DNA from: Clostridiaceae bacterium
GTDB taxonomy: Bacteria > Bacillota > Clostridia > Lutisporales > Lutisporaceae
Reading direction: 5' to 3'
NCBI GenBank assembly: GCA_003527145.1
Contig: DPSW01000388.1
Span: 1-6,075, forward strand
Length of the DNA stretch: 6,075 nt
Shown here: positions 1 to 6,075 of the stretch, one piece after another
Position numbering within the stretch: position 1 is the first letter of the stretch
Layout: each line of letters starts with the position of its first letter
The notes under the pieces: model-generated
Told to the model about the DNA's origin: nothing
Seen by the model: only the letters and a program-made list of their open reading frames with translations
Database searches by the model: none
Made by a program: the position numbers and the translations under genes

Positions 1-331
1 GACCAGCGAAGAACTGGCCATAAAGCACAAGTTTATCAGCTCACCTACCATTCGGGTGGATGGCAGGGATATTCAAATGGAAGTCAGAGAGAGCAGATGC
101 GAATCATGCGGTGAGTTGTGCGGAGATGATATAGAGTGCCGCGTCTGGGTATATAAGGGTGAAGAATATGCAGTACCACCAAAAGAGTTGATAATGGAAG
201 GCCTCTTGAACGGTATATTTGGGAGAGAGGATATAGCAGGTGAGGATAAGGAATATACATTGCCGGAGAATTTAAAGAAATTCTATAATTCTATGAATGA
301 AAAAAACAAAAGTGTTGTTAGAAATAGATGA
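1..331 (+). CDS. Thioredoxin-like DUF2703-type protein, C-terminal part (5' end outside window)
   Basis: The frame is open from base 2 with no stop before TGA at 329-331, giving 109 visible residues; the gene starts left of the window. A GTG at 56 could be read as a start, but the conserved sequence continues upstream of it (SSPTIRVDGRDI), so I treat the gene as truncated by the window edge. S-P-T-I-R-V-D-G matches the cis-proline strand of thioredoxin-like DUF2703 proteins, which often sit in arsenic or metal operons. It is followed by a Cys-rich stretch (RCESCGELCGDDIECRV) and a PPKELI helix, as in that family. The N-terminal CxxC or CxxU redox motif is not visible. The 3' end overlaps the ArsR gene by 35 bp, which indicates one operon. 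By context it is probably a redox partner for metalloid or organometal handling. Family fairly sure; function inferred. Confidence 0.68.
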   Translation, partial: TSEELAIKHKFISSPTIRVDGRDIQMEVRESRCESCGELCGDDIECRVWVYKGEEYAVPPKELIMEGLLNGIFGREDIAGEDKEYTLPENLKKFYNSMNEKNKSVVRNR

Positions 332-665
332 GCTACAGATGGGGGTTAGTAATTTGGAGAGTAACTATAAAGAATATGCATTGTTTATGAAAGCATTAGG
401 GGATGAGACCAGATTAAAAATATTTCATATGCTTTCCGGTGGGGAGCTTTGCGCCTGCAAAATACTTGAGGAGTTTCATATAACACAGCCTACTCTTTCC
501 TATCATATGAAAACGCTTTGTGAGAGTGGGTTGGTAAATGGCAGGCGCGATGGAATTTGGACAAAATATTCAATCAATGAAAAGGCTTTAGAAGCATTAA
601 AAATGCTGTTCAATGATATAGACGTAAAAACTGCTGGCTATTTTGACTGCAGTACAGAATGTTGA
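297..665 (+). CDS. ArsR/SmtB-family metalloid-responsive transcriptional repressor
   Basis: A 122-residue winged-helix repressor, the usual size for the family. Residues 28-46 carry the ALGDETRLKIFHML signature. Residues 50-60 (ELCACKILEEF) hold the ArsR-type Cys-x-Cys pair C52/C54, the site used for As(III)/Sb(III)-like ligands. Residues 61-80 form the recognition helix (TQPTLSYHMKTLCESGLV) and about 82-93 the wing. C75 and two C-terminal cysteines (C118, C122 in FDCSTEC) could add ligands. Family members bind an operator near their own operon and release it on metal binding; any such operator is outside the window. The start is uncertain: ATG 297 overlaps the upstream gene, and in-frame ATG 339 (residue 15) would give a 108-residue protein that keeps the whole domain. 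Neither has a strong Shine-Dalgarno site, so coupling to upstream translation is likely. Inducer identity is inferred. Confidence 0.92.
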   Translation: MKKTKVLLEIDELQMGVSNLESNYKEYALFMKALGDETRLKIFHMLSGGELCACKILEEFHITQPTLSYHMKTLCESGLVNGRRDGIWTKYSINEKALEALKMLFNDIDVKTAGYFDCSTEC

Positions 666-677
666 GGAGATGATGAT

Positions 678-1682
678 TTGATTGTATTTAAGTGGCTAAA
701 TAGCCAACTGCTGAAAATGGAGTGGCTTTATAATCTAGTGACTTTTCTTGTAGAAAATATCTTCAGATTGGATGTAAATAACAGAGTAGGTGGAAGCGTT
801 CACTTCTTCATATATGACGTCATAAAAATATTTATATTATTATCAGTATTGATCTTTGTGATTTCATATATTCAAAGTTTTTTCCCACCGGAAAGAACCA
901 GAAAAATATTAGGCAGATTTAACGGAGTTTCTGCCAATATATTGGGAGCTTTACTTGGCACTGTCACACCCTTTTGCTCCTGTTCATCTATACCCTTGTT
1001 TATAGGATTTACAAGTGCAGGGCTGCCAATTGGTGTTACCTTCTCATTTTTAATATCTTCACCCTTGGTAGATTTGGCCTCTGTTATTTTGCTTGCCAGC
1101 ATATTTAACTGGAAGATAGCTATAGCATATGTTCTTGTAGGCATTGTGCTTGCTGTTGTTGGAGGAACTATCATCAGTAAATTAAAGCTTGAAGAATATG
1201 TAGAGCCCTTTGTTTTTGGCAACAAGGTCCTTGAAGCGGAACAAGAAGATATGACTGTTAGAGATAGAATAGATTTTGCAAAAGATCAGGTTTTAGATAT
1301 AATAAAAAAAGTGTGGCTTTACGTTCTGATAGGAGTTGGAATAGGCGCTGCCATACACAATTGGATACCACAAGACGTTATTTCAGCGATACTTGGAAAG
1401 GATAAGTGGTACTCAGTCTTATTAGCAACTTTTGTTGGTATACCTATGTATGCTGATATATTTGGAACATTGCCTATTGCTGAAGCTTTGGTTTTAAAGG
1501 GCGTAGGATTGGGAACAGCTCTTTCCTTTATGATGGGAGTAACAGCACTTTCCTTGCCATCCATGATTATGCTGAATAAAGTTGTTAAGATAAAGCTTTT
1601 AGCTATATTTGTGGGTATTGTTACCTTGGGCATCATTATTATTGGCTGCACTTTTAATACTTTTGGTTATTTATTAATGTGA
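678..1682 (+). CDS. ArsP-like (DUF318 family) membrane permease, probable organometal(loid) efflux
   Basis: A 334-residue polytopic membrane protein of the permease family that includes ArsP, the trivalent organoarsenical exporter. Hydrophobic segments lie at about 46-66, 84-110, 115-140, 147-165, 210-230, 245-270, 275-300 and 305-325, with a charged cytoplasmic-type loop at 170-210. The family signature TPFCSCSSIPLF (97-108) places C100 and C102 at the likely substrate path, and a second conserved half-repeat is GIPMYADIFGTLPI (254-267). The start is TTG 678, 8 nt after a GAGGAG Shine-Dalgarno site (664-669) that overlaps the arsR stop; the nearby ATGs at 670 and 673 run straight into TGA. 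A start at ATG 717 is possible but has no comparable ribosome site. Only 12 nt separate it from the ArsR gene, so the two are co-transcribed. An insertion sequence begins 13 bp after its stop. Family confident; substrate inferred. Confidence 0.88.
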   Translation: MIVFKWLNSQLLKMEWLYNLVTFLVENIFRLDVNNRVGGSVHFFIYDVIKIFILLSVLIFVISYIQSFFPPERTRKILGRFNGVSANILGALLGTVTPFCSCSSIPLFIGFTSAGLPIGVTFSFLISSPLVDLASVILLASIFNWKIAIAYVLVGIVLAVVGGTIISKLKLEEYVEPFVFGNKVLEAEQEDMTVRDRIDFAKDQVLDIIKKVWLYVLIGVGIGAAIHNWIPQDVISAILGKDKWYSVLLATFVGIPMYADIFGTLPIAEALVLKGVGLGTALSFMMGVTALSLPSMIMLNKVVKIKLLAIFVGIVTLGIIIIGCTFNTFGYLLM

Positions 1683-1695
1683 GCCATTGGGGATG

Positions 1696-1714
1696 GTTCG
1701 AAACCACTGAAAAA
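1696..1714 (+). repeat. Left terminal inverted repeat of the IS1182-family element
   Basis: GTTCGAAACCACTGAAAAA. It matches the reverse complement of 3384-3402 at 18 of 19 positions; the mismatch is T versus C at the fourth base. Confidence 0.88.
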
Positions 1715-1762
1715 CGTTAAATAAAAATTGTAAGATATTCAATAATATTCTACAAGAATCAA

Positions 1763-1827
1763 CATAAAACCCCCTCTGTATGATATAATGAATGTGAAGC
1801 AAACATTACAAACAAGGGGGTTTTATG
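1763..1827 (+). promoter_or_regulatory. 13-bp inverted repeat that can sequester the transposase ribosome site in read-through mRNA
   Basis: CATAAAACCCCCT (1763-1775) is the exact reverse complement of AGGGGGTTTTATG (1815-1827), with a 39-nt spacer. The 3' arm contains the GGGGG Shine-Dalgarno-like run (1816-1820) and the ATG at 1825. The 5' arm lies upstream of the native promoter (-10 at 1784-1789), so only transcripts entering from outside the element contain both arms. Other insertion sequences such as IS10 and IS50 are known to use such a fold to block translation from impinging transcripts; its use here is inferred. Confidence 0.65.
1781..1789 (+). promoter_or_regulatory. Extended -10 promoter of the transposase gene
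   Basis: TGATATAAT is a perfect extended -10 (TGn plus TATAAT at 1784-1789). No good -35 is seen 16-18 bp upstream, but an extended -10 can work without one. Transcription would start near 1796, leaving a leader of about 30 nt before the transposase start. The start point is inferred. Confidence 0.6.
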
Positions 1828-3363
1828 ATGCTTAAGAACAAGCCTAAGCAATTAAGTTTATATTCAATATTATACAATAGAATTCCTAAAAATCATATAT
1901 TAAAATTAATAAATGATGCTGTGGATTTTGGTTTTATTAATAAACTACTAGAAAAGTCTTACTGCAAGTATTATGGAAGACCAGCTAAAGAACCCGAACT
2001 TATGACTAGGCTTTTAGTACTTCAGTATTTATATAATTTATCAGATGAACGGGTGATTGAAGAAGCCTCTTTGAATCTTGCATATATGTGGTTTCTTGGA
2101 ATTAATCCTGAAGAAGAACTTCCTCATCCAAGTCTTTTAGCTAAATTTAGAACCATAAGACTTAAGGAAACTACCTTGGATGATATTATTCAAGAAGTAG
2201 TCAGGCAATGTATAGAAAAAGGCATCATTAAAGGAAGCAGTATCAGTATTGATGCAACACATACAGAGGCTAACACTGTAAAAAAGGTTCCTGAGAGAAT
2301 CATGAAACATCTTGCTAAGAAAATATTTAAAAACATGGGAGAAGAAATTGGGACAGTACCAGATCAAATAGATACAAACATACCTAATTACAAGGAAATA
2401 GAAGATCATAATATAGCAAAGCAAACTATGAAGAACTATCTGGAAAAAACTATTGAAAATGTAGAATCAAGCGTTGATTTAACTGTTGCCCCTAAAACAG
2501 TAGAAATTATTGAGGAAGCTAAACAAATACTGAATTCTCCCAAATTCATAGAACAAAAGGGTATCAGATCATTAGTTGATAAAGATGCCAGAGTAGGGTG
2601 CAAATCTAAAACAGATAGCTTCTTCGGGTATAAAGTTGAATTTGCAATGATACCTGAAGAGAGAATAATAACGGCGGTAAATGTACAAGATGGGGCTTAT
2701 GTAGATGGAACAGACTTCAAAGAGTTATATGAAAAAACAAAAAACTGTGGAGTTGAAATAAAGGAGGCATATGGGGACAAGGCATATTTTAGGAAGCCCA
2801 TATTGGACTTTTTAAAAGAAGAAAAAGTAAAAGCATATATTCCGGTAAGCGAATCGGTATATAAACTAGACGATAGTAAATTTAGTTACAACAAGGATTC
2901 AGACCAATGGACATGTGAAATGGGCAATTGTACTGCCAATAAGAAAAAGAGCAAGAAAAAGGATAGAGAAAGTTACTACTATTACTTTAAAAAAGAGGAT
3001 TGTAAAAACTGTCCTAAAAGGGAGGAATGTTTATACAAAGGTAAAGTAAGAAAAATACTTGAGATTACAGTAAATACAACAGCATTTTATGAATACAGCA
3101 AATTTACAAAGTTAGAAGGCTTTCTAGAAAAGTATAAAATGCGAGCAAGTCATGAATGGAAAAACGGAGAAATGAAAAGGTTCCATGGTATGGACCGTGC
3201 GAGAGGGTACGGTCTTAGAAGCATGGGAACCCAAGCAAAGCTAACGGCGCTGGTAGTAAATTTAAAGAGGATAGCAAGCATACTATCCTCTCGTTCTACT
3301 TGTTTTATTGCTATAATTGAAGAATTATGGTTACTTCCTAAAAAAGTTCAAATTGCTGGTTAA
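1825..3363 (+). CDS. IS1182-family DDE transposase
   Basis: A 512-residue transposase, full length for IS1182, which cuts and rejoins the element's ends. The N-terminal DUF772-type domain covers about 45-115 (YYGRPAKEPELMTRLLVLQ through HPSLLAKFRT). The RNase H-like catalytic core supplies D143 (SIDATHTEAN), D318 (YGDKAYFRKP) and, as the probable catalytic glutamate, E449 (NGEMKRFHG). VDKDARVGCKSKTDSFFGYK (251-270) is the typical strand before the second Asp. A Lys-rich and Cys-rich insert at 364-402 (C364, C369, C393, C396, C402) may bind zinc. Residues 455-483 (MDRARGYGLRSMGTQAKL onward) form the usual C-terminal region ending in NLKRI. ATG 1825 and ATG 1828 are adjacent; 1828 sits at a better distance (7 nt) from GGGGG at 1816-1820. 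The frame has no break, so it is probably functional. Confidence 0.95.
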   Translation: MMLKNKPKQLSLYSILYNRIPKNHILKLINDAVDFGFINKLLEKSYCKYYGRPAKEPELMTRLLVLQYLYNLSDERVIEEASLNLAYMWFLGINPEEELPHPSLLAKFRTIRLKETTLDDIIQEVVRQCIEKGIIKGSSISIDATHTEANTVKKVPERIMKHLAKKIFKNMGEEIGTVPDQIDTNIPNYKEIEDHNIAKQTMKNYLEKTIENVESSVDLTVAPKTVEIIEEAKQILNSPKFIEQKGIRSLVDKDARVGCKSKTDSFFGYKVEFAMIPEERIITAVNVQDGAYVDGTDFKELYEKTKNCGVEIKEAYGDKAYFRKPILDFLKEEKVKAYIPVSESVYKLDDSKFSYNKDSDQWTCEMGNCTANKKKSKKKDRESYYYYFKKEDCKNCPKREECLYKGKVRKILEITVNTTAFYEYSKFTKLEGFLEKYKMRASHEWKNGEMKRFHGMDRARGYGLRSMGTQAKLTALVVNLKRIASILSSRSTCFIAIIEELWLLPKKVQIAG

Positions 3364-3383
3364 AACCTATCTAAAAACATTAA

Positions 3384-3402
3384 TTTTTCAGTGGTTTCGG
3401 AC
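3384..3402 (-). repeat. Right terminal inverted repeat of the IS1182-family element
   Basis: Read on the minus strand this is GTCCGAAACCACTGAAAAA, the partner of 1696-1714. It starts 20 bp after the transposase stop codon. Confidence 0.88.
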
Positions 3403-3504
3403 GGTTATTTTTGCTTCTGATCATATATGCATATTCATGACGGCAGTATTATTACCTGCCCTATGTCTTTAAAATTGGCCATATACAATAGCTACAATTA
3501 CCCT

Positions 3505-4383
3505 TTACCAACCTCTATTGGCAAATTGGTTCTCTTGAGATAAGGTATTTATTTCAATGCCTGACATAGCTTCTCCCAAATCCTCGGAAACTTCTGCCAA
3601 AACCTTAGCATCGTTAAAATGTGCTGTGGCTTTTACTATTGCTTTTGCTCTTTTTTCCGGATTACCTGATCTGAATATCCCTGAGCCAACAAATATTCCA
3701 TCACAACCAAGCTGCATCATGAGGGCTGCATCAGCAGGTGTAGCAATACCGCCGGCTGCAAAATTTATAACGGGCAATTTGCCTTTTTCTGATACGTATT
3801 TTACCAAATCATAGGGAGCGCCCATTTCTTTTGCAGCTGTCATCAATTCTTCATTTGGCATTAATTGAAGTTTTCTGATATCTGACATGATTGTCCTCAT
3901 ATGTCTTACTGCTTCAACAACATTTCCAGTCCCTGCTTCACCTTTTGTTCGTATCATTGATGCTCCTTCTCCGATACGCCTTAGGGCTTCACCCAAGTTT
4001 CTTGCGCCGCAAACAAAAGGTGTCTTAAAACTTTTTTTGTGTATGTGATATAATTCATCAGCAGGTGTTAATACTTCGCTTTCATCAATATAATCAATGC
4101 CTAAATACTCTAATATTTGTGCTTCAACCAAATGACCGATGCGCACCTTAGCCATTACAGGAATTTTTACTGTATTCATAATTTCTTTAATCATTTTAGG
4201 GTCTGACATTCTAGATACTCCGCCTTCTTTTCTTATATCTGAAGGAACCCTTTCCAAAGCCATAACAGCTACAGCCCCCGCTTCTTCGGCAATTCTTGCT
4301 TCCTTTGCATTTGTAACATCCATTATGACTCCGCCCTTTAAAAGCTGAGCTAAGTCTTTGCTTGATTCATTAATTTTATCCAT
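3505..4383 (-). CDS. pdxS: Pyridoxal 5'-phosphate synthase lyase subunit PdxS
   Basis: A 292-residue (beta/alpha)8-barrel enzyme, full length and ending in the family's RGW tail. PdxS makes pyridoxal phosphate from ribose 5-phosphate, glyceraldehyde 3-phosphate and ammonia, the ammonia being delivered by the glutaminase PdxT. Catalytic residues are visible: D22 (MDVTNAKEA), K79 (VMAKVRIGH), which forms the first Schiff base, and K147 (RTKGEAGTG), which carries the later intermediate. They correspond to D24, K81 and K149 of the Bacillus enzyme. GEAGTGN (148-154) and GSGIF (233-237) are phosphate-binding loops. Start ATG 4383 has AGGAGGAG 7 nt upstream. The gene converges on the permease operon. 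The 102 bp between its stop and the insertion sequence contain no pdxT start and no convincing terminator, so the partner gene must be elsewhere. Confidence 0.98.
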
Positions 4384-4412
4384 TTGTATTCTCCTCCTAC
4401 ATTACTTGTAAT

Positions 4413-4722
4413 TCAATTATATTCAAAGGGTGGTATAAAACAATATTGTAATGCCACATTATGGGAGAAGGGCTCTGGTATTCCATAAGTGTATCGGTAC
4501 ATTATAGGATCAAAAATGTTCTTAAGCGCAGACAGCGGGGTAGTAGGGCGAAAGCTGAGGATATATTGGCTTCCCCGGGTGCCAATTCTAAAATTGAATA
4601 GCAGCCATATGTATTTCGTCCACAATCATTACAGGCGTTATCCTCTGCTCACAGTATAGATCCTTGATGCAATTTTGTATTTATTGAAACAATGTAACCT
4701 TTTTGCAGGGTGGCCTTTTATA
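4413..4722 (-). pseudogene. Decayed fragment of an ExeA/TniB-like AAA ATPase of mobile-element type
   Basis: Read on the minus strand from about 4722, one frame gives YKRPPCKKVTLFQ, a stop, then IQNCIKDLYCEQRITPV and MIVDEIHMA. The latter looks like the hydrophobic Walker B strand plus sensor region of ExeA/TniB-type ATPases that accompany some transposases. A second stop follows within a few codons. Similarity then seems to continue in another frame (LLFNFRIGTRGSQYILSF, inside the open stretch 4625-4413), as if a short deletion had removed about ten codons and shifted the frame. No Walker A motif, intact start or partner transposase is visible. The fragment begins where the zincin gene ends, and its 3' part contains the pdxS promoter. 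The identification rests on my memory of the family pattern; the middle is fairly convincing, the last 40 residues are not. Confidence 0.5.
4416..4443 (-). promoter_or_regulatory. Probable pdxS promoter
   Basis: On the minus strand a perfect TATAAT (4421-4416) lies 16 bp after a weak TTGTTT -35 (4443-4438). Transcription would begin near 4409, giving a leader of about 26 nt that contains AGGAGGAG (4398-4391). No PdxR-type operator could be recognised by eye. Confidence 0.55.
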
Positions 4723-4723
4723 T

Positions 4724-5842
4724 TCATTGTGGATATGTGACAATCAAATCTTCAATAATTACAGGTATAAACGTATTGAAATTTTTATATATGGCACGGT
4801 GGGCAAGATATTTGTTAATGCTTTTGCAAACGGTATCGATATAAATAAATCCATTTTCTCGCTCTTCCGCCAACAATTGCTCTGCTCGTCTCGGATTGTA
4901 ATATTTCATCATCTCAATTACACAAGCTCTCAGAATCAGTTCTTCCAGAACGGTATCCCAATCAGAATAAGCGAGGCCTGCCATCTCTTCGGAAATTGGC
5001 TCCAATAAATGCTCGCTCTTTTCAATCCATTCGGCAAAATGCTCTTCACCGGAAATAGGGATAAAGCTGTGACCAAACTCATGGGCTTCCAGTTCCGTAA
5101 AATAGTCACAATCCCAAAAGACAGGGATGCGGTCTGCTACATCATTGGGCCCCAGCAAAGAATAAATAAATCGCTGCTCGCCTTTGGCTATTGAGGGGCC
5201 AAAGCCTCCGGTGTGGAATAGGGTGACCAGCACCACATTATACTCGTCAAACTTCTGACCATAGAACTCTTCCATATAGCCAAGCAGGTTTTCTTCGGGC
5301 AAAATCGCCAGAGTATTGTTCAATATAGTTTGGTAGTAATCTATATGCTTTTTAAAGAATGATTCAAAATCGCTGGCTAAATAGAAATCTTTCAGCAGGT
5401 CGAAAAACTCCTGCAGTTTTTCTATTTCATCAAAGTAGAAGTCATTTGAGTCAAACTGTTTGATATAGCTCCGATAAGCTTCTTCATCCACCGTAAAGTC
5501 CGGTCTCATAAACAGAATCATGGCAGGCGGTTCATCGATGGCACTAAAGGCGGCATTTTCATAATACTGCACGGCCGGATGATTATCATATTTTCGAAAA
5601 TGGTCGTCAATGTCCTTTTTATAATTCGTATAAAAACGGCTGATCAATCCATAACGGATATTCATATTATCCTTGCCCATGTATTGGACAATTGTCAGCA
5701 ATTCCAGCTCCGGCCTTACCGACATAATGAGACCATTGCGGGTAACGGTAATAGGCTTCGGCAGCTGCGGTTCTCCGCTGGCTTGTATGCTTCCAGAAAA
5801 AAGCAGAGTAAAGCAGCAAATGGCTATTATCATTTTTTTCAT
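4724..5842 (-). CDS. Secreted HEFGH zinc-metallopeptidase-like protein (DUF4932 type)
   Basis: 372 residues. An N-terminal signal peptide (KK, hydrophobic 4-18, likely cleavage near SIQA-SG at 21-22) lacks a lipobox, so the protein is probably exported free. HEFGHSF (254-260) is a zincin motif: H254 and H258 would bind zinc and E255 would be the general base. The third ligand may be E300 or E301 in the helix VLEELILRA, as in gluzincins. Spacing and the HEFGHSF form recall DUF4932 proteins, whose substrate I do not know. Residues 30-250 are rich in acidic and aromatic residues with no other motif I recognise. Start ATG 5842 has GAGGAGGT 6 nt upstream. The gene is divergent from a response regulator and shares a two-sided operator with it, so it may be a two-component target. 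No clear terminator follows. Protease activity is inferred. Confidence 0.8.
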   Translation of the reverse strand: MKKMIIAICCFTLLFSGSIQASGEPQLPKPITVTRNGLIMSVRPELELLTIVQYMGKDNMNIRYGLISRFYTNYKKDIDDHFRKYDNHPAVQYYENAAFSAIDEPPAMILFMRPDFTVDEEAYRSYIKQFDSNDFYFDEIEKLQEFFDLLKDFYLASDFESFFKKHIDYYQTILNNTLAILPEENLLGYMEEFYGQKFDEYNVVLVTLFHTGGFGPSIAKGEQRFIYSLLGPNDVADRIPVFWDCDYFTELEAHEFGHSFIPISGEEHFAEWIEKSEHLLEPISEEMAGLAYSDWDTVLEELILRACVIEMMKYYNPRRAEQLLAEERENGFIYIDTVCKSINKYLAHRAIYKNFNTFIPVIIEDLIVTYPQ

Positions 5843-5879
5843 TATAAAACCTCCTCGTAAATTTTTAATCTTTAAAAGT

Positions 5880-5913
5880 ATTATATAAAACAGCAGGTTA
5901 AGAAAAGGTTAAG
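5880..5913 (-). promoter_or_regulatory. Promoter of the zincin gene with PhoB/OmpR-type direct-repeat operator
   Basis: Reading on the minus strand: CTTAACC (5913-5907), TTTT, CTTAACC (5902-5896), 10 bp, TATAAT (5885-5880). The heptads are identical and 11 bp apart, one DNA turn. They occupy the -35 position, where no normal -35 exists, as in activator-dependent pho-box promoters. Transcription would start near 5873, about 30 nt before the start codon. Confidence 0.68.
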
Positions 5914-5932
5914 CTCAGAAATGTTTTGGTGT

Positions 5933-5971
5933 CTTAACTCAAAATTAACCATGGCACTGCTATACTATAAT
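5933..5971 (+). promoter_or_regulatory. Promoter of the response-regulator gene with matching direct-repeat operator
   Basis: CTTAACT (5933-5939), CAAA, ATTAACC (5944-5950), 10 bp, TATACT (5961-5966). This is the same heptad-4-heptad-10 layout as the divergent promoter, in the opposite orientation. A second -10 candidate, TATAAT, overlaps at 5966-5971 with a 15-bp gap. No normal -35 is present. The arrangement predicts positive autoregulation. Confidence 0.62.
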
Positions 5972-6013
5972 TATGATATTGTAAAGGATAGTCTTGACAA
6001 AGGAGGAAAGAAA

Positions 6014-6075
6014 ATGCGGCTATTGATTATAGAAGATGAAAATGATTTGCGCACTGCTTTGCTGCGAGGATTTCG
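6014..6075 (+). CDS. OmpR-family response regulator, N-terminal start (3' end outside window)
   Basis: Only 20 full codons are visible: MRLLIIEDENDLRTALLRGF. This is the first strand and helix of a receiver domain, with acidic pocket residues E7 and D8 that bind Mg2+ near the phosphorylated Asp (not in the window). The form M-R-L-L-I-x-E-D-E is typical of OmpR/PhoB winged-helix regulators, and a histidine kinase gene usually follows. ATG 6014 has a strong AAAGGAGG (5999-6006) 7 nt upstream. The operator type in front of the gene agrees with an OmpR/PhoB-class regulator that controls itself. The DNA-binding class itself cannot be seen here. Confidence 0.85.
   Translation, partial: MRLLIIEDENDLRTALLRGF

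Follow-up and report, generated by a model that had tools for sequence, protein, structure and literature searches.

Gene content of the locus

The DNA analysed here (the window, 6,075 nucleotides) comes from a bacterium of the genus Lutispora and opens a contig of 15,695 bases (L010), of which it makes up positions 1-6075. Its intergenic region 5843-6013 is bordered on one side by a gene for a 372-aa DUF4932 protein on the minus strand (4724-5842; PF16286) and on the other by an OmpR/PhoB-type response regulator gene on the plus strand, of which the window holds 6014-6075. Only the first codons of the regulator are present because the window stops at an assembly gap inside the gene, visible in the contig as two N directly after 6075. 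The regulator gene reaches 6688 in the contig and is followed by a histidine kinase gene that extends to 7822. By eye, a predicted ribosome-binding site precedes each of the divergent genes, GAGGAGG for the DUF4932 gene (5850-5856, minus strand) and AAAGGAGG for the regulator gene (5999-6006, plus strand). The nearest named relative, L. saccharofermentans m25 (L003), has the same gene order with the genes intact. Its regulator combines a receiver domain (PF00072) with a Trans_reg_C winged helix (PF00486), the domain composition of the OmpR/PhoB family, and its kinase carries PF00672, PF00512 and PF02518. Among proteins of solved structure, DrrD (1kgs) is the best relative of the regulator and PmrA the second.

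The DUF4932 protein matches PF16286 with 135.5 bits against a curated cut-off of 28.7. It has an HEFGH motif, and H254, E255, H258 and E301 are invariant across 14 relatives, which gives the HEXXH motif with a downstream glutamate of gluzincins; E301 would then be the third ligand. We therefore refer to the protein as a zincin, a predicted gluzincin with putative protease activity, and a hydrophobic stretch at its N terminus makes secretion likely. Its structure model has a pLDDT of 88.6, and a Foldseek comparison with the PDB gave no match at E 0.001 or better. The zincin of L. saccharofermentans is 98% identical. No relative of the zincin was found in viral contigs, and none of the intergenic stretch in plasmid sequences.

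Two further features frame the locus. Downstream of the kinase gene, L010 7970-10497 encodes a NUDIX/NrtR-type regulator and an isochorismatase-family protein, followed by a nicotinate phosphoribosyltransferase-like frame (by eye). This order is the same in L003, and the genes probably form a separate NAD-salvage unit. Within the window, a 512-aa transposase-like frame (by eye) at 1825-3363 is flanked by 19-base inverted repeats at 1696-1714 and 3384-3402 that are 95% complementary, so that 1696-3402 looks like an insertion sequence between ArsR/ArsP-type genes and a pdxS-type gene.

Mirrored heptad pairs at two divergent promoters

The preliminary description had reported that both promoters between the two genes carry paired heptads with an 11-bp period, followed after exactly 10 bp by a -10 box, in mirror orientation. 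This layout is present in the sequence. On the minus strand, 5913-5880 reads CTTAACC TTTT CTTAACC TGCTGTTTTA TATAAT, with the distal heptad at 5907-5913, the proximal heptad at 5896-5902 and the predicted -10 box of the zincin promoter at 5880-5885. On the plus strand, 5933-5966 reads CTTAACT CAAA ATTAACC ATGGCACTGC TATACT, with the distal heptad at 5933-5939, the proximal heptad at 5944-5950 and the predicted -10 box of the regulator promoter at 5961-5966. As the fourth heptad is ATTAACC, the core common to all four is TTAAC at an 11-bp period. The plus-strand box is preceded by TGC, which we take to be an extended -10 (TGC-TATACT, 5958-5966). A second -10-like hexamer on this strand, TATAAT at 5966-5971, overlaps TATACT, lies 15 bp past the heptad and has a hexamer with 4 of 6 matches 15 bp upstream, so the exact -10 of the regulator promoter is uncertain; we prefer the 10-bp spacing because homologues keep it and because of the preceding TGC. 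For the preferred -10 of each promoter, the -35 position is poor, agreeing with TTGACA at 0-3 of its 6 bases when spacers of 15-19 are allowed. The heptad pairs are thus direct repeats of 11-bp period that lie upstream of a -10 box in place of the -35, as at OmpR/PhoB-type sites.

Chance resemblance would be easiest to imagine in AT-rich DNA such as this stretch, which has two more minus-strand promoter-like matches nearby (6000-5973 and 5868-5841). However, with up to three mismatches allowed, the pattern occurred in the window at these two places only (0.02 expected), none of 200 shuffles gave two matches, the reversed pattern had no match in 291 genomes, and the layout recurs in homologues. 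On the strength of shuffles, reversed controls and homologues we rejected two chance operators as extremely improbable.

When the own genome was searched for heptad pairs 10 bp from a -10 box, as proposed, the exact layout turned up at these two places and nowhere else in its 3.3 Mb (77.6% complete), and the reversed-pattern control gave none. In a sample of 291 genomes of the class Clostridia, the exact layout was present in two, the own genome and G269 (one place), and the controls again gave none. The G269 match (L013 1501-1534) is flanked by genes for a KdpE-like regulator and a Na/phosphate-cotransporter-like protein (both named by eye) and stands upstream of the latter, which belongs to another pathway. 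A loosened pattern had no 0-mismatch site beyond this locus in two Lutispora genomes, and its 1-mismatch sites (1 in G000 and 7 in G002, the latter ∼96% complete) were fewer than those of the reversed-pattern controls (10 and 18). A wider regulon in Lutispora was rejected on these grounds, and the small, self-contained regulon proposed earlier agrees with the searches of both genomes.

Between the two Lutispora species, the intergenic stretches show 12 differences over ∼171 places (11 substitutions and 1 insertion), none of them within the 40 bases of the heptads and -10 boxes (P = 0.036). Taken alone, this sequence comparison would be poor support for the sites, and the zincin arm is seen in these two close species only.

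The layout at homologous regulators of other genera

We searched for regulator homologues at several taxonomic ranges. No close homologue at E 1e-55 was found in the order's other 20 genomes. The class gave 10 of 391 genomes at E 1e-62, own genome included, with 10 foreign loci; the order of G164, with the G164 copy as query, gave 4 of 151 genomes at E 1e-75 with 3 new loci; and the phylum gave 3 of 388 genomes at E 1e-64, own genome included, with 2 new loci. Regions from -250 to +10 were then screened on either strand for TTAACN6TTAACN11TANNNT with at most two mismatches. The layout was detected upstream of 10 of the 15 foreign homologous regulators, exactly in L037, L038, L095 and L027, with one mismatch in L036, L039, L028 and L032, and with two in L031 and L035. 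It was absent from L029, L030, L033, L034 and L096 (4-5 mismatches). In L029, L033 and L096, a same-strand frame ends just before the regulator or overlaps it, so that the promoter may be further upstream, and L030 and L034 come from one genus. As a control, L. saccharofermentans supplied 24 further OmpR-type regulators, whose best values ranged from two mismatches (L068 and L073) to six. The conservation of the heptads called for by the preliminary description was therefore borne out in two-thirds of the foreign homologues and failed in the rest; as the gene pair seen here is not known from any of the 15 loci, the comparison bears on the regulator arm.

Inspection, in part by eye, added detail to these sites. 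The matching site points away from the regulator in L028, L031, L032 and L035, the divergent neighbour in L032 being a 4Fe-4S protein, whereas in L035 and L028 the gap is 9 bp at the site that does face the regulator. At L036, the hexamer found at 10 bp, TAATGA, makes a poor -10, and TATAGT at 16 bp is a better one. Of the 11 sites with at most two mismatches, own relative included, 7 have a TGn before the -10, which supports the 10-bp spacing. Upstream of a paralogue, L078, the heptads CTTAACC-4-ATTTACC occur without a -10 at the spacing of the layout; together with the exact match in G269, this indicates the heptads are not unique to the regulator clade.

In a maximum-likelihood tree of 74 regulators, the Lutispora protein falls in a group of 62 rows (support 93/89). 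The recognition-helix signature FS(N/G)xx(K/R)VHxS is common to nearly all rows of the regulator clade, and L030 and L096, two rows without the layout, have KYH in the helix instead. Upstream of the L. saccharofermentans paralogues L068 and L073 lie pairs of TTTAAG or CTTAAG type with an 11-bp period, the half-site type published for CiaR and PmrA, so neighbouring paralogues may differ in the last base of the half-site.

A matrix with masked spacers was built from the sites that face the regulator at six foreign loci (L036-L039, L095 and L027). In both Lutispora copies, the zincin-side site scored 27.7 and the regulator-side site 18.7, and no other site in 181,792 bases of Lutispora DNA scored as high as these four; the next, 16.8, came from a locus chosen for its resemblance to the pattern. 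Although only regulator promoters of other genera had entered the matrix, the top-scoring site was the zincin promoter. The G269 site also scores 27.7, so the matrix is unable to separate this regulator from every other.

These scores bear on another arrangement, in which the regulator uses its own promoter alone, the mirrored site also serves autoregulation, and the zincin is expressed independently. Conservation beyond Lutispora concerns regulator loci and not the zincin neighbour, as such an arrangement would have it. Nonetheless, of the two sites the zincin-side one fits the matrix better, stands 10 bp from a perfect TATAAT facing the zincin gene and has no good -35, and we regard this arrangement as unlikely.

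The main rival that we name takes the sites for Pho boxes recognised by the PhoP of the genome, which would make the zincin gene and the two-component operon phosphate-starvation genes. The same genomes have a PhoP-type regulator with a TTTAACA box that shares the TTAAC core; TTTAACA units recur with the same 11-bp period at the pstS promoters of both Lutispora genomes (L089 and L090), and the sole foreign exact match, in G269, lies upstream of the cotransporter-like gene. However, the array at pstS comprises more than two units, each ending in A, and scores only 8.2 on the clade matrix, the layout tracks this regulator clade across genera, and the PhoP-like paralogue next to pstS (L067) has a different recognition helix, RTVDVHIRHLRRKL. 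We therefore consider a reading by PhoP quite improbable.

A probable local regulon and its relation to known systems

Overall, our preferred reading, to which we assign a probability of roughly 70%, is that the adjacent regulator binds both heptad pairs in place of the -35 and so switches on both the operon to which it belongs and the DUF4932 zincin gene on the other side. As the layout is kept before homologous regulators and the two Lutispora genomes yielded no additional exact target, a local regulon made up of the regulator and its neighbour is the best reading. Of the two activities proposed in the preliminary description, self-regulation is well supported by the layout before 10 of 15 foreign homologues, and activation of the zincin, seen in two close species, is plausible. 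By analogy with PmrA and CiaR, and judging from the sequence of the sites, a phosphorylated regulator dimer would sit head-to-tail on each pair of TTAAC-type heptads, take over the role of the -35 and bring RNA polymerase to either promoter, with transcription predicted to start near 5873 on the minus strand and 5973 on the plus strand.

The regulator might also bind both pairs and repress, or merely modulate, one or both promoters. Activation and repression look alike in sequence, and the extended -10 of the plus promoter may need no activator. However, a site that ends 10 bp before the -10 and replaces a poor -35 occupies the activator position published for CiaR, and such repression or modulation is in our view very unlikely. 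The assignment of both sites to the activator geometry of the PhoB/OmpR class, made in the preliminary description, agrees with the CiaR account. We thus retain activation of both promoters by the adjacent regulator as the likelier reading.

DUF4932 was found in 6 of 291 genomes of the class, own genome included (3 above the cut-off), and in 6 of 394 genomes of the order of G164 (5 above the cut-off). Four DUF4932 neighbourhoods (L046-L049, of which L047 holds a partial DUF4932 gene) contained no regulator homologue. A second, distant DUF4932-like gene of L. saccharofermentans (L048 6950-8143) shares 24% identity with the first, and no regulator homologue was found within the surrounding 15 kb. 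When 14 zincin homologues were compared with the best 120 of 3488 regulator homologues, zincin P0124 and regulator P0019, both from Eubacteriales bacterium OttesenSCG-928-A19, had the same longest contig size (11,487 bases), as did zincin P0122 and regulator P0008 (7,120 bases); the two regulators are 87% identical. Judging from these equal sizes, the pairing of DUF4932 with the regulator is apparently present on two further contigs. In four Christensenella-type neighbourhoods, a zincin beside the regulator was not found. In one of them (L050), HlyD- and MacB-type proteins are encoded after the kinase, with look-alike frames there in the other three, and ABC transporter genes come after a more distant kinase-regulator pair in G376. 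A recurrent, self-contained sense-and-cleave module, in which the two-component system of the clade drives a secreted DUF4932 gluzincin from a mirrored promoter through its TTAACC-type half-site, is a tentative and rather doubtful extension; in this view, the exporter and ABC transporter genes beside such kinase-regulator pairs would suggest a peptide signal that is either cleaved or pumped out. For the regulator clade of Lutispora, Christensenella and others, these results yield a concrete TTAACC-type half-site and a signature of the recognition helix, and for DUF4932, a name met in one paper of the literature searched, they offer a partner that can be tested. Should the pairing hold, the signal of the kinase and the substrate of the protease could be sought together.

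Several known regulators resemble this system in part. The SaeR site, GTTAA-N6-GTTAA, reads TTAAC-N6-TTAAC on the other strand, but it belongs to another genus and has the opposite strand orientation. The PhoP box of the Lutispora pstS promoter is alike in its TTAAC-type units at an 11-bp period and differs in unit number, final base and matrix score, as described above. Another is CiaR of streptococci (CiaRH), an OmpR-type regulator with a direct repeat of 11-bp period directly upstream of the -10, for which the published account gives TTTAAG-N5-TTTAAG and ten bases to the -10 (PMC3091779). The corresponding gap in the present sites is 11 if measured from CTTAAC, the CiaR-like hexamer, and 10 if measured from TTAACC. 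In contrast to the TTTAAG of CiaR, the half-site here is of TTAACC type: the G of NTTAAG, which that account calls extremely important (PMC3091779), is replaced by C in all four heptads. Moreover, the CiaR regulon comprises several promoters, whereas one locus is involved here.

For PmrA/BasR, published work describes half-sites CTTAAG and NTTAAT five bp apart, head-to-tail binding and a -35 located at half-1 (PMC3973317, PMC4660055). The positions of PmrA reported to contact bases differ in the regulator here (N188 to G, N196 to L and H195 to S by alignment), which scores 174.1 bits against the curated PmrA cut-off of 330 (NF007928). PreA/QseB of Salmonella is reported to activate its own operon and flanking operons (PMC2653508), and the reported start sites inside each other's genes suggest its operon is divergent from ygiW. 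It differs in having other neighbours and in acting on further loci, and its binding sites are left undefined in that paper. For the TTAACC-type half-site and the recognition-helix signature of the clade, no description was found in the literature searched on motif and regulator words. The circuit design is thus already known from CiaR, PmrA and PreA/QseB, and what is new is the half-site of this clade and its DUF4932 partner.
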